Below, piece by piece: positions 15,130-19,847 of a stretch of 64,000 nucleotides of DNA. The notes beneath the pieces were generated by a model. It was given only the letters and a program-made list of their open reading frames with translations, did not search any database and was not told the origin of the DNA. Source of the stretch: Methanomicrobiales archaeon HGW-Methanomicrobiales-3 (GTDB taxonomy: Archaea > Halobacteriota > Methanomicrobia > Methanomicrobiales > Methanospirillaceae); the NCBI GenBank assembly GCA_002839605.1, contig PGYK01000005.1, positions 62,001-126,000 on the forward strand, in the 5' to 3' direction. The position numbers were made by a program, and so were the translations under genes. How positions within the stretch are numbered: position 1 is the stretch's first letter; every line of letters starts with the position of its first letter.

Positions 15130-16221
15130 TCAGAAATTTGCCTCGTCAGACTGTGCCGGGTTATACCGCCCGGCCGGAACCGGAGTCTGAACCGGGACCG
15201 GAACGGCAGTCGGGGCCGGGGTCACCACAGGTTCATCCTCCTGTCCCGGGAGGTGCGAGTGGGTATCGCTGCCCGGGAGGAGAATCCGGTGTGCTTCATC
15301 TTCCGTGCAGTCAGCGCCGATCTTCTGGCAGTAGGCAAGAGATGCATTCTTTGCGGCCGGGTTGGGTGGCCAGACCGCGTCACCGCCCTGTGTTTTCTTT
15401 CCCAGGTATTCGGCATACCGGTAGGCATGGATGAAACTCAGCGAGGGGATGGTCTTCTGGAGATACCCGATGGTGATGCTCCCGGTCCGGTCTGAACCGA
15501 GAACGCAGTGGTAGTAGATGAGGCGCTTCTTCCCGGACGGGTCCTTTTCATCCATGAGCGTGATGATCTGGTCAATGCGACCGGAATAACTGCAGGTATT
15601 GCCAACATCCGCATCGATGGTATCTTTGCATTGCTGATCGAGATGAGGGCAGAATGCGAAAGCAGATGAGATGAGGTTTCCAGCCTGCCCATTGACGGAT
15701 CCTCCGGCAAGCGGGGCTGAACAGGTGCTTTTGACGCCCCCGAACTCGCGGAGCAGGACATCAAACTCCTGGGAATTGATCTCGCCGTGATCAAGAAGGC
15801 TGATATCGATGATCCGGTAATCGTCCAGATTGAAATTTTGCATATCACGGATGAGCGCGGCTTGTTTGCTGTCAGGGAAATAGGCCGGGGCTGACGATGA
15901 CTTTTTGTTCTGCATCATCGTGTTTAGTTCATCGTAGGCAAAACGCCAGTCTGACTGGTTCATGCAGTTGCCTGACTGCCCGGTACCGTTCCGGACGATG
16001 AGGGGCAATGGTCCCCGCACCAGGAGATTGCCGGTCGATTCTGCATAGTCGACCACGACAGGGCCGGCTAGCTGGGCACGGTTTGATTCCTCGAGGTTGT
16101 AGATCTTCAGGCAGCAGGTCCCGTCCGGGGCCGCAGGGGTCTCATAGCAGGAGAATGCACTGGCTGATGTGGCGAGCAGGACAAGGCCGATGAGAAAAAA
16201 GGAGATGCGGTATGAGTTCAT
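15130..16221 (-). CDS. Secreted protein with tyrosine/dual-specificity phosphatase signature
   Basis: A 363-aa protein with a signal peptide (residues 1-22, ending SASAF). The ATG at 16221 is chosen because the signal peptide begins there. The active-site loop HCVLGSDRTGSIT (Cys239, Arg245) fits the HCx5R(S/T) signature of cysteine-dependent phosphatases. A helical segment follows as in DSPs. There are about ten other cysteines, consistent with disulfides outside the cell. The C-terminus carries a Pro/Thr/Val linker and ends YNPAQSDEANF after LPGSDTHSHLP, a tail shared with the thaumatin-like protein at 27070-28308. Substrates could be phosphoproteins, inositol phosphates or lipids. It is cotranscribed with the small Cys-rich protein upstream (13-nt gap). 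Confidence 0.75.
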   Translation of the reverse strand: MNSYRISFFLIGLVLLATSASAFSCYETPAAPDGTCCLKIYNLEESNRAQLAGPVVVDYAESTGNLLVRGPLPLIVRNGTGQSGNCMNQSDWRFAYDELNTMMQNKKSSSAPAYFPDSKQAALIRDMQNFNLDDYRIIDISLLDHGEINSQEFDVLLREFGGVKSTCSAPLAGGSVNGQAGNLISSAFAFCPHLDQQCKDTIDADVGNTCSYSGRIDQIITLMDEKDPSGKKRLIYYHCVLGSDRTGSITIGYLQKTIPSLSFIHAYRYAEYLGKKTQGGDAVWPPNPAAKNASLAYCQKIGADCTEDEAHRILLPGSDTHSHLPGQEDEPVVTPAPTAVPVPVQTPVPAGRYNPAQSDEANF

Positions 16222-16234
16222 GGGACCTCGCATT

Positions 16235-16480
16235 TTAACAAGCCAGATCACAATGGCTCCGGCATTCGAACGGGTTCGGATCATAGTTGCAGTTGAAGAG
16301 GCAGTTTTTGCACATGAGATTGGCTGCATTGTCCGGCGGCTGCAACGCGGAACCCTCACGGGCCGGAAGTTCGATTACAAGATAATATCCCCCTCCAATG
16401 ATAGTTCCAAGAAGGCCTAGGCAGAACAGGAACAGTACGAGCCGGCCGAGCGGGGCTCCTGAATTTTTATTTGTTTCCAT
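16235..16480 (-). CDS. Small membrane protein with cysteine-rich outer tail (81 aa)
   Basis: The start METNKNSGAPLGRL at 16480 follows ggggggaaaatgca. A membrane helix covers residues 13-35. The C-terminal about 25 residues carry six cysteines in the pattern CxxCxxxCx8-9CxxxCxxxC (LMCKNCLFNCNYDPNPFECRSHCDLAC). The tail probably faces outward and could be disulfide-bonded or bind metal. It stops 13 nt before the secreted phosphatase-like gene and so probably works with it. No family is recognised. Confidence 0.6.
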   Translation of the reverse strand: METNKNSGAPLGRLVLFLFCLGLLGTIIGGGYYLVIELPAREGSALQPPDNAANLMCKNCLFNCNYDPNPFECRSHCDLAC

Positions 16481-16743
16481 TGCATTTTCCCCCCGGAACA
16501 CCGGGTAACAATAGTTACTTGAGACCGTGACTCTAAAAACCGCGTGAACAGGGAAAATAATCGCCGGATATTTTCCATGTCCCGGGAACAACCCCCATGC
16601 CGGGGGCAATTGAGAACAGCCCTAAAAAAATCCTGCACAGGTATCCACGGTACCGGATGAGCATCCTTATCTTTTCCGTTTTCCCAATTGATCCTGAGTG
16701 CAGGTGTAAAGACACCCCCCGAGCACTGCAACCCAAAGGCCCG

Positions 16744-18843
16744 GTGATTATAATCAAAAGAACATGGATCTGCCAGCTCATTCTCATCATCGTCATCCTT
16801 GGTGCAGCAGCAGCGGCCGGCTCAATGCTCATCCATGCCAGCCAGCCGGTCCGTATCGGGGTCCTCCTCCCGATGACCGGCGATATCGATGCAAGAGAGC
16901 CGCTCGAATGGGCACAGGAGAACATCAACCGGGCTGGAGGTATCGGGGGAAGGCCGGTTGAACTCGTGTACCGGGACACAGGCACCGGCGATACCGTCAC
17001 CATGGCACAGGAACTGCTCGCTGACGACTCCATAAGGATCGTCATCGGCCCGCCAACCAGCGATGACGTCTTCCTGCTGGCACCGGAGTTCATTAAAAAA
17101 GAGAAGATCCTCATCAGCCCGTTTGCAACGTCCGGCGACATCATCCGGGCCTTTGGCAAAAAAGGGTATTTCTGGCGTACAACACAGGGTGACGTGGCGC
17201 AGGTAAAAGTGATAATCACCAAGATGAAGGAAAAAGGGGTCAGCCGGGTTGCGCTCCTTACCGAGAACTCAACCTATGGCAAAACATTCTATGACTGGAC
17301 CGGGTTTTTTGTCACCGAGTATGGTCTGGAACTTGCGTCGATCCGGCAGTTCGAACCCGCAACCGGGGTAACGGAAGCAGATATTGCCGCAGTCTTAAAT
17401 GCCGATCCGGAATATCTCATCGTCGCCTGCGGACCGGAAGATGCTGCGACCATCAAAAAAGCCATTGACCGGTCCAAAAAACCCGTCCGGTTGTTCTTTA
17501 CCGATGCCGCAGCCTCCCCGGTTCTCGTAACCCTGCTCGGCGAAGCAGCAGAAGGTATCGAGGGGACATCGCCAACCGCAGATCCCACGACCGGCTTTAC
17601 CGTTGCCTACCGCGAGAAATTCAACGAGTCTCCTGCGGATTATGCGGCCCCGATCTATGATGCACTTCTCATTGCAGCCTATACTACCGCACGACAGGAT
17701 GCGGTGCGTTTTGAATCACCGGCCGATGCGATCCGGGCCGTGGTCTACGGTTCCGGCACGCAGAAAGGCTGGGATACACAGGAAGCGCACGAGACTATTC
17801 TCGCGCTTCGTGCGGGCCAGACACCGGCCATCAGCGGGGCAAGCGGACCGCTCGATTTCGATGCAGAATTTGGGGTGGACCCGCTGGCAACGTACTACTC
17901 CCACTGGGTAATTGAGGACGGCACATTCCGTACCATTGATGTGCTGGGTTCAGCAAAGTCCGGAACCGCCGGCGCCAGCGGGGAGTCGGTTTCAAGGACC
18001 CGTGCCTCGGGAACGCTCATGGCACTAACCGAAACAAGCGTGGTGCACTATGATCCCCCAACGGAACGAACGGATTTCCGGGCGGTCATCGTGGGTCCAT
18101 CGCAGGGCTGGAAGAATTACCGGCACCAGTCCGATGCTCTTGCCGTCTATTCGATGCTCCGGGAGAATGGCGTTCCGGACGAGCACATCATCCTGATGAT
18201 CTACGATGATGTCCCGAACTCCAGGGAGAACCCGTTGCGGGGTGACATCCACAATATGCCCAAAGGAGAAAATCTCCGGGCCACTGCTGACGTGGATTAT
18301 ACCGGAGACCAGGTGACTGCGGCCACGTTCCGGCAGGTTCTTTTAGGAGAACCGACCGCTGATATCCCGATGGTCCTTGACGGAACACCCGGAACCGATG
18401 TCTTTGTCTATATCGCAAGCCACGGCACCCCGGGCGGGATCGTCTTCTCTGGCAAATCGCCCTCCCTGACCACCCAAAACTTTACGGAGATCACGGACAC
18501 GATGTACGAAGAGGGCAGGTACCGCCAGATCGTCTTCTTCGTTGATACCTGCTTTGGGGAGAGCATTGCCACAAATGCCACGGCAAAGGGCCTCCTGTAT
18601 TTCACCGGAGCTGCTGCCAGCGAACCCTCGCATGGGGCAGTGTATGACCTCGACATCCGGCAGTGGCTTTCAGACGAGTTTACGGCAAGCATGTTAAACG
18701 CGATCCGGGCGGACCCCGATATCACGTTCAGGGAACTGTACATAACAACCTACGAGAAGGTGACCGGCTCGCATGTCCGGATGCTGAATACGGAAAATTT
18801 CGGGAGTATCGATCTTCCCGTGCGGAGGTTCCTCCAGCCATGA
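16744..18843 (+). CDS. ANF-receptor-type binding domain fused to C13 (legumain/Gpi8-like) peptidase
   Basis: About 699 aa from a GTG at 16744, chosen because a membrane anchor (residues 9-31) starts there; the frame is open back to 16597. Residues about 37-420 form a type-1 periplasmic-binding fold of the branched-chain amino acid/ANF receptor kind (VRIGVLLPMTGDIDAREPLEWAQENINRAGG; PTSDDVFLLAPEF; ENSTYGKTFYDW; FTDAAASPVL). Residues about 480-690 are a clan CD, C13-type peptidase. It has AVYSMLRENGVPDEHIILMIYDD, the catalytic His560 in YIASHGTPGG and Cys603 in FFVDTCFGES. Legumains and GPI-transamidases cleave or transfer after Asn/Asp. The likely role is an anchored, ligand-gated protease on the cell surface. 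The stop overlaps the next start by 4 nt (ATGA). Confidence 0.85.
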   Translation: MIIIKRTWICQLILIIVILGAAAAAGSMLIHASQPVRIGVLLPMTGDIDAREPLEWAQENINRAGGIGGRPVELVYRDTGTGDTVTMAQELLADDSIRIVIGPPTSDDVFLLAPEFIKKEKILISPFATSGDIIRAFGKKGYFWRTTQGDVAQVKVIITKMKEKGVSRVALLTENSTYGKTFYDWTGFFVTEYGLELASIRQFEPATGVTEADIAAVLNADPEYLIVACGPEDAATIKKAIDRSKKPVRLFFTDAAASPVLVTLLGEAAEGIEGTSPTADPTTGFTVAYREKFNESPADYAAPIYDALLIAAYTTARQDAVRFESPADAIRAVVYGSGTQKGWDTQEAHETILALRAGQTPAISGASGPLDFDAEFGVDPLATYYSHWVIEDGTFRTIDVLGSAKSGTAGASGESVSRTRASGTLMALTETSVVHYDPPTERTDFRAVIVGPSQGWKNYRHQSDALAVYSMLRENGVPDEHIILMIYDDVPNSRENPLRGDIHNMPKGENLRATADVDYTGDQVTAATFRQVLLGEPTADIPMVLDGTPGTDVFVYIASHGTPGGIVFSGKSPSLTTQNFTEITDTMYEEGRYRQIVFFVDTCFGESIATNATAKGLLYFTGAAASEPSHGAVYDLDIRQWLSDEFTASMLNAIRADPDITFRELYITTYEKVTGSHVRMLNTENFGSIDLPVRRFLQP

Positions 18844-19847
18844 ACCGAAACCGTCTTCTTGTCGCAGCCGCAGCCGGTGCCCTGCTCGTTCTCCTGCTGG
18901 CATTCATCATCACCTCCCCGTCACCGGACAAAGACCTCCCGATGATCTACATCATCTACGGGTCGGAGAAAGGGGATTTGTCGTACACGGACAGTGCGTA
19001 CCGGGGCCTGTTTGCTGCACAGGAAGCGATGCCGTTTGCCAAACGCGAGTTCGTGACCCTGAACCGTTCTGACCTGGCCGGACGATTGAAAAATCCCGGC
19101 CCGGAAAAGCCCGGGCTCATCATCACGGTTGGTTTCAATTATGCCGCAGACACGCAACAGCTTGCAAAAGAGCACACGGATATCCGGATCCTTGCCATCG
19201 ACCAGTCGGGGATCGGGTCACACAATACTCAGGCATACGAGATCACCTCGTACGGCCAGAGTTATCTTGCCGGCGCTCTTGCAGCATCGGAAACAAAGAC
19301 CGGCAGGGTGGGCATCATCCTCGGGGCGCAATCCGGGTTGCTCGATGCGTTCCGCCTGGGCTACATCGAAGGGGCACAGGCTGCGGATCCTTCCGTTGCG
19401 GTCGATGTCGCGTACGTGAGTACGAGCCCGAATGGGGGATTTTCCGACCCGGCCCGGGCTGCGGAGATCGCCCGCGGCATGTACCAGGACGGGACTGATG
19501 TGATCTTCACCGTTGCGGGATTCTCGGGTACCGGGGCGATCAGCGAAGCAAAGAAGGCGCCGGGGCGGTACATCATCGGGGTCGATTCAGACCAGACCCA
19601 TCTCGGCCCTTCGGTTATCCTGGCATCCGCAGTGAAACGGGTGGACCGGGTGGTATATACCGGGATTGGCGAATATCTGAACGGAACATTTGCCGGGGGC
19701 AACAGGGTGGCCGGGCTCAACGAAGGAGTGACGGGCATTTCCTGCAACCCGCGATTTGTTGCCTGTGCTCAAACGGTAAGTATCTGGGAAGAGCAGGCAC
19801 GAGACGCAGAGGAAAAATACCTTGCCTCCCGCAGCAATGGCGGGTGA
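18840..19847 (+). CDS. BMP-family (Med/PnrA-like) binding protein
   Basis: A 335-aa exported protein. An N-terminal membrane anchor or signal (residues 7-26) is followed by the type-1 periplasmic-binding fold of the basic membrane protein family (PMIYIIYGSEKGDLSYTDSAYRGL; KPGLIITVGFNY; RVGIILGAQSGLLDAFRLGYIEGA; DVIFTVAGFSGTGA; YIIGVDSDQTHLGPSVILASAVKRVD). BMP proteins bind nucleosides or related ligands. No lipobox Cys is seen, so the helix is probably the anchor. It is translationally coupled to the C13 fusion gene. A close paralogue lies at 51975-52991 beside a cache-domain lipoprotein. No ABC permease or ATPase accompanies either, which suggests sensing rather than uptake. Confidence 0.88.
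   Translation: MNRNRLLVAAAAGALLVLLLAFIITSPSPDKDLPMIYIIYGSEKGDLSYTDSAYRGLFAAQEAMPFAKREFVTLNRSDLAGRLKNPGPEKPGLIITVGFNYAADTQQLAKEHTDIRILAIDQSGIGSHNTQAYEITSYGQSYLAGALAASETKTGRVGIILGAQSGLLDAFRLGYIEGAQAADPSVAVDVAYVSTSPNGGFSDPARAAEIARGMYQDGTDVIFTVAGFSGTGAISEAKKAPGRYIIGVDSDQTHLGPSVILASAVKRVDRVVYTGIGEYLNGTFAGGNRVAGLNEGVTGISCNPRFVACAQTVSIWEEQARDAEEKYLASRSNGG

Follow-up and report, generated by a model that had tools for sequence, protein, structure and literature searches.

C13 proteases are known chiefly from eukaryotic vacuoles and from GPI anchoring, and the locus described here raises the question of what such an enzyme, joined to a solute-binding receptor, would do at the surface of a methanogen. 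The window, i.e., the whole analysed stretch of 64,000 nucleotides from a Methanomicrobiales archaeon, encodes a protein that a sequence-only reading had described as a membrane-anchored fusion of an ANF/branched-chain-binding domain with a C13 peptidase domain retaining His560 and Cys603, possibly a ligand-gated surface protease or transpeptidase. The architecture held in every part: a single unbroken ORF carries a Peripla_BP_6/ANF and a Peptidase_C13 domain, both above Pfam cut-offs, behind an N-terminal transmembrane (TM) segment, the C13 identity is borne out by Pfam and by legumain itself (Table 1), and the host is Methanoregula-like. In the open-access literature we found no report of a prokaryotic C13 substrate and no description of the present system under archaeal C13, Methanospirillum legumain, archaeal GPI8 or Methanoregula Cys-rich peptidase systems; one archaeal MAG paper lists legumain (C13) genes among extracellular peptidases (PMC6461988).

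Table 1. Features at the fusion locus (positions in the window).
Feature	Position	Strand	Evidence or remark
Secreted PTP/DSP-like phosphatase (HCVLGSDRTG), ordinary signal peptide	15130..16221	-	13 bp after leader gene
Predicted substrate, 81 aa: TM leader ending P-P-D-N and Cys-rich tail	16235..16480	-	leader family; divergent neighbour of fusion
P-D-N codons, predicted C13 cut after Asn51	16328..16336	-	best-conserved columns of leader family
SBP-C13 fusion gene	16744..18843	+	single ORF, 699 aa; TM anchor ~9-30; conserved GTG start; order-wide homologues
Type I solute-binding (Peripla_BP_6/ANF) domain, residues 35-357	16846..17814	+	Pfam Peripla_BP_6 E 1.1e-28
Peptidase_C13 domain, residues 447-685	18082..18798	+	Pfam E 1.3e-51; legumain E 3e-36; Foldseek legumain E 3.6e-12
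Asn458-Tyr459-Arg460 = legumain N42-Y43-R44 (catalytic Asn, S1 Arg)	18115..18123	+	33/33 homologues
Catalytic His560 (aligns with legumain His148)	18421..18423	+	33/33 homologues
Catalytic Cys603 (aligns with legumain Cys189)	18550..18552	+	33/33 homologues
Asp644 = legumain D231 (S1)	18673..18675	+	D 30, N 3 of 33 homologues
Second membrane-anchored SBP, Bmp/PnrA-like	18840..19847	+	Pfam Bmp E 6.4e-43; start overlaps fusion stop (ATGA)

The fusion gene reads without interruption from a GTG at 16744 to the stop codon at 18841-18843; an alternative in-frame ATG lies upstream at 16597, and the V-I-x-I-(N/E/K)-(R/K) N-terminus recurs in many homologues. The TM anchor sits within the first 34 residues, and the solute-binding (SBP) half that follows is matched also by the Pfam ANF_receptor model (E 8e-11), its solved relatives in the PDB being branched-chain amino-acid binding proteins. 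The C-terminal half scores 176 bits with Peptidase_C13, against a gathering cut-off of 22.8, and among solved structures it is related to legumain and to GPI transamidase (E ~1e-25), a profile search giving 6e-42. The protein ends 14 residues past the C13 match, and the C-terminal activation peptide/LSAM prodomain of legumain is absent. Among the neighbouring ORFs and conserved neighbour clusters of the loci, no branched-chain type permease or ATPase was recognised.

Two separate genes joined or split by a frameshift are ruled out for the window, where the ORF is intact, and relatives show the same fusion order. A search for this architecture found it in ~30 genomes of the order, with 33-73% identity over both domains, and five public records, their hosts named Methanoregula or Methanomicrobiales, carry it as well; hence, the fusion is neither chance nor an assembly artefact. 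Matches to PF01650 occur in 35 of the 232 genomes of the order, the strong ones mostly in open frames of ~670-750 aa with the same SBP-C13 order, and the fusions fall into two sets, one of Methanoregula type (20 genomes) and one of divergent members (g13, g4, g24 and g15, the tree position of G213 in g15 being unsure). Other C13 matches in a phylum sample of 393 genomes were only weak and partial, and no relatives were found in plasmids (tblastn) or viral contigs (scan). These weak matches, together with L073 (G159:C1:554171-554608), are half C13-like domains (the His-Cys part) in other Halobacteriota proteins, which may represent other caspase-like peptidases. In three loci (L049, L051 and L052) the C13 domain is intact and the SBP domain is truncated (G159) or frameshifted (G191). 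The first of these stands in a closed genome (L049, G159:C1) and has lost most of the receptor; hence, gating may not be essential, and the receptor domain may be dispensable.

In legumain, N42, H148 and C189 are the catalytic residues, and R44, E187 and D231 form the Asn-selecting S1 pocket. Among 33 archaeal homologues, no variation was seen at Asn458, Tyr459, Arg460, His461, His560, Gly561 and Cys603, which bears out the intact dyad claimed earlier; the acidic S1 residue is Asp601, two codons before Cys603 (D in 23, E in 10). As judged from these alignments, the catalytic triad and the Asn-selective pocket are conserved, and cleavage at Asn is predicted. An AF2 model of the full protein, built with 6 sequences, reached a pLDDT of 47 and was set aside, and that of the C13 domain alone (pLDDT 57) served only for the fold search, in which Foldseek ranked legumain first. 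Because both models are poor, the geometry of the dyad is taken solely from homology.

A candidate for what the enzyme cuts lies beside it. On the upstream side, across a gap of 264 bp, the divergent gene encodes an 81-aa product (METNKNSGAPLGRLVLFLFCLGLLGTIIGGGYYLVIELPAREGSALQPPDN-AANLMCKNC...DLAC), whose N-terminal TM leader is present in 8 copies in this genome and in up to 17 in other genomes and is covered by no Pfam or NCBIfam model. We collected 98 distinct members from the fetched loci. Their leader reads roughly (S)PLARLVLFMICLAIAGSxVAGxHYYAVDLPQQKxxxAPxN and then diverges completely; the paralogues are alike solely in this TM-plus-motif signal, and conservation stops at the Asn. No other column of the leader, TM positions included, is as well conserved as the Pro (96/98; 4.18 bits) and the Asn (93/96; 4.09 bits) of P-x-N, and the columns directly behind the Asn fall to 0.4-0.7 bits; after thinning to <60% identity, 29/30 members retain the Pro and 27/30 the Asn. 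Codon choice is varied, with AAC 50 times and AAT 43 times for Asn and each of the four codons for Pro, which indicates that selection acts on the protein; in the stretch preceding the motif, only 2.7% of the residues are Asn. An N-glycosylation sequon was rejected as the reason for the Asn (N-x-S/T in 4/93). Likewise, a Cys/DPNP motif in the tail of the 81-aa protein was dropped as a substrate mark, the motif being unique in the genome and the family sharing the leader, not the tail. It could be argued that signal peptidase cuts the leader, which would then be a common signal peptide followed by a linker, with P-x-N acting as a structural turn or a non-proteolytic recognition site, as the TM stretch resembles an h-region and is followed by small residues. 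We regard this as highly improbable, since Pro and Asn are the best conserved residues though they lie 15-20 residues past the TM, a plain linker needs no Asn, and Pro is avoided at P1' (1/93 members). Since the leader ends in Pro-x-Asn, the type of bond cut by legumain, the locus looks like part of a new archaeal protein-processing system.

The leader is also distributed with the enzyme. Using the leader-only profile A3 (E <1e-8), we found 23 leader-positive genomes among the 232, namely 19 of the 20 with a Methanoregula-type C13 versus 4 of the 212 without it (19/1/4/208; Fisher 5e-23, a value that ignores relatedness and is overstated because the genomes are related). The corresponding counts are 5/0/1/187 outside the genus and 14/1/2/118 for high-quality genomes only. 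The profiles that yielded the hits contained the P-x-N motif. Moreover, a leader gene adjoins the fusion in 6 of the 20 genomes (G000, G126, G127, G129, G133 and G178) where 0.32 would be expected (simulated P ~5e-7, its significance again overstated by relatedness), and among 295 genomes sampled from the phylum the leader was not seen outside the order. G110, which belongs to another taxonomic family, has a C13 of the Methanoregula-type clade, and its only leader protein terminates in PPTN-MK. There are counter-cases: C13 was not found in G172 (85% complete) and G176 (70%), which have many P-x-N leaders, nor in G227 (98%), with one leader protein carrying VPAN, and G158 has C13, its sole leader protein lacking P-x-N. 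The one leader protein of G180 (90% complete) is also without P-x-N. Genomes of g24, with a divergent C13, encode one or two small Cys-tailed proteins each, with a different leader and with Asn at the same junction in 5/5 sequences; these genes adjoin C13 in two of three genomes (G017 and G019). Conserved secreted-protein genes (c9 and c5) lie upstream of the fusion on the opposite strand in 3/3 g24 genomes (L063, L065 and L066). Near the divergent g13/g4 fusions (L050, L054, L058, L060, L061 and L062) we observed family c4, secreted proteins of ~197 aa with a Cys-rich tail, in which an Asn closely precedes the first Cys, a possible substrate family of that lineage.

A protease-substrate relation best accounts for an Asn-pocket C13 enzyme and a co-distributed family with a conserved boundary Asn. 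On the sequence comparisons, we postulate, with a probability of roughly 0.75, a dedicated many-to-one system in which a membrane-anchored C13 asparaginyl endopeptidase processes exported proteins that carry P-x-N leaders. This would give the surface protease proposed earlier a sharper role, processing of a paralogous family that the sequence-only reading had overlooked. Alternatively, the fusion could be a nutritional or housekeeping surface protease that cleaves peptides from the environment on the C-terminal side of Asn and collects amino acids, the leader being processed otherwise. Its SBP relatives bind branched-chain amino acids, SBPs often scavenge, and C13 enzymes figure in a list of extracellular peptidases from other archaeal MAGs (PMC6461988). 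However, such a role leaves the co-distribution, the adjacency and the match of P-x-N to C13 specificity unexplained, and we find it rather unlikely. Archaeosortase was rejected as the partner of the leader, since its presence in 37 of the 39 genomes of the genus does not discriminate.

What follows the leader resembles a product in most members. The tails are mostly 20-90 aa long with 14% Cys, and the Cys count is even in 52 of the 57 tails with at least four Cys, as expected for disulfide-bonded extracellular miniproteins; other cargo includes PEGA-type domains and a PTP-like phosphatase. The phosphatase of the window is 44% identical to one fused to a P-x-N leader elsewhere in the same genome (L174, G000:C16:64500-67000), the same domain thus carrying a signal peptide in one gene and the leader in the other. 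HCxxGSDRTG phosphatases of the PTP/DSP-like type with a P-x-N leader were seen in L174 and in L037 1293 (-). The least explained members, odd for a release system, are at least 21 whose tails comprise only 1-12 residues after P-x-N. Tandem arrays of such 50-60 aa proteins occur in L039 (G178:C61) 295-1690 and L171 (G166:C3:388000-391500), with tails such as D, C, FD, VT and TGFGT, and these proteins are possibly acyl donors or signalling peptides. Short tails would be sensible leaving groups if C13 were a transpeptidase that passes the leader from a leader-Asn acyl-enzyme to an amine, joining it to other surface proteins, and GPI8 and peptide ligases do belong to the same family. As the leader forms the acyl part of the acyl-enzyme, transpeptidation, if any, would move the leader and not the tail. 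In its fullest form, this would be a receptor-controlled archaeal asparaginyl transpeptidase, the prokaryotic equivalent of GPI transamidase but with the signal at the N-terminus, for which P-x-N leaders are anchor donors joined to or exchanged between surface proteins while hypervariable disulfide-rich peptides are released. Nevertheless, in the majority of members the tail is a Cys-rich miniprotein or an enzyme and has the look of a product, and no acceptor motif was identified; we consider transpeptidation unlikely.

Returning to leader processing by a C13 endopeptidase, the following course may be envisaged. The shared TM leader would insert each substrate with its N-terminus inside and its C-terminus outside, and the anchored, outward-facing enzyme would meet it outside the cell at the membrane. 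The juxtamembrane D/E-L-P-x-Q ... P-x-N segment would offer Asn at P1 and Pro at P3, and a cut after the Asn would free the variable domain, mostly a disulfide-rich miniprotein and sometimes an enzyme such as the phosphatase, from its anchor. A regulatory or positioning role towards the protease is probable for the receptor domain, often alongside another SBP whose gene follows directly; that second SBP belongs to the Bmp type here and at 11 other loci, and to the Leu type in the g13/g4 lineage. The receptor domain might serve as an amino-acid sensor or grip the substrate, and the protease may be under ligand control.

The archaeal enzyme shares with legumain (MEROPS C13; human legumain, PDB 4aw9) the catalytic Asn/His/Cys, the S1 Arg/acid/Asp, ~28-36% domain identity and probably the caspase-like fold, but differs from it in lacking the activation peptide/LSAM prodomain, in being archaeal, membrane-anchored and SBP-fused, and in its co-distributed substrate-like family. 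GPI8/PIG-K, which works in a complex of the GAA1/PIG-T type, has a C13 fold, membrane association and a substrate family with a common signal, as predicted here; however, it uses a C-terminal signal and lipid transfer, whereas the archaeal candidates have an N-terminal signal and no known acceptor. Bacteriocin double-glycine leaders also combine a conserved leader and hypervariable small cargo with a dedicated cysteine protease (C39 peptidase); unlike them, the archaeal leader is a TM anchor with a predicted P-x-N cut by an extracellular C13 and has no transporter link. In GlyGly-CTERM/rhombosortase systems, many substrates share one enzyme, adjacency is seen in some genomes, and cargo is shared with other export signals (PMC3237569). 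The archaeal paralogues are similarly alike only in a TM-plus-motif signal, are co-distributed with, and sometimes adjoin, one protease, and have cargo families that switch between signal types, but their signal is N-terminal rather than the C-terminal signal with basic tail of sorting pairs, and the enzyme is a receptor-fused C13 and not a rhomboid, sortase or exosortase. By this analogy, the pairing would follow the known many-to-one logic of sorting, with C13 as a new enzyme class in that role.

The locus provides a C13 enzyme for which a substrate motif has been computed and can be tested, together with a substrate-like family that lies outside Pfam and NCBIfam models. If the cleavage is true, it would constitute a new export and processing pathway in methanogens, account for a large number of orphan miniproteins rich in Cys, and offer a reference with which the origin of legumain and GPI8 could be compared.
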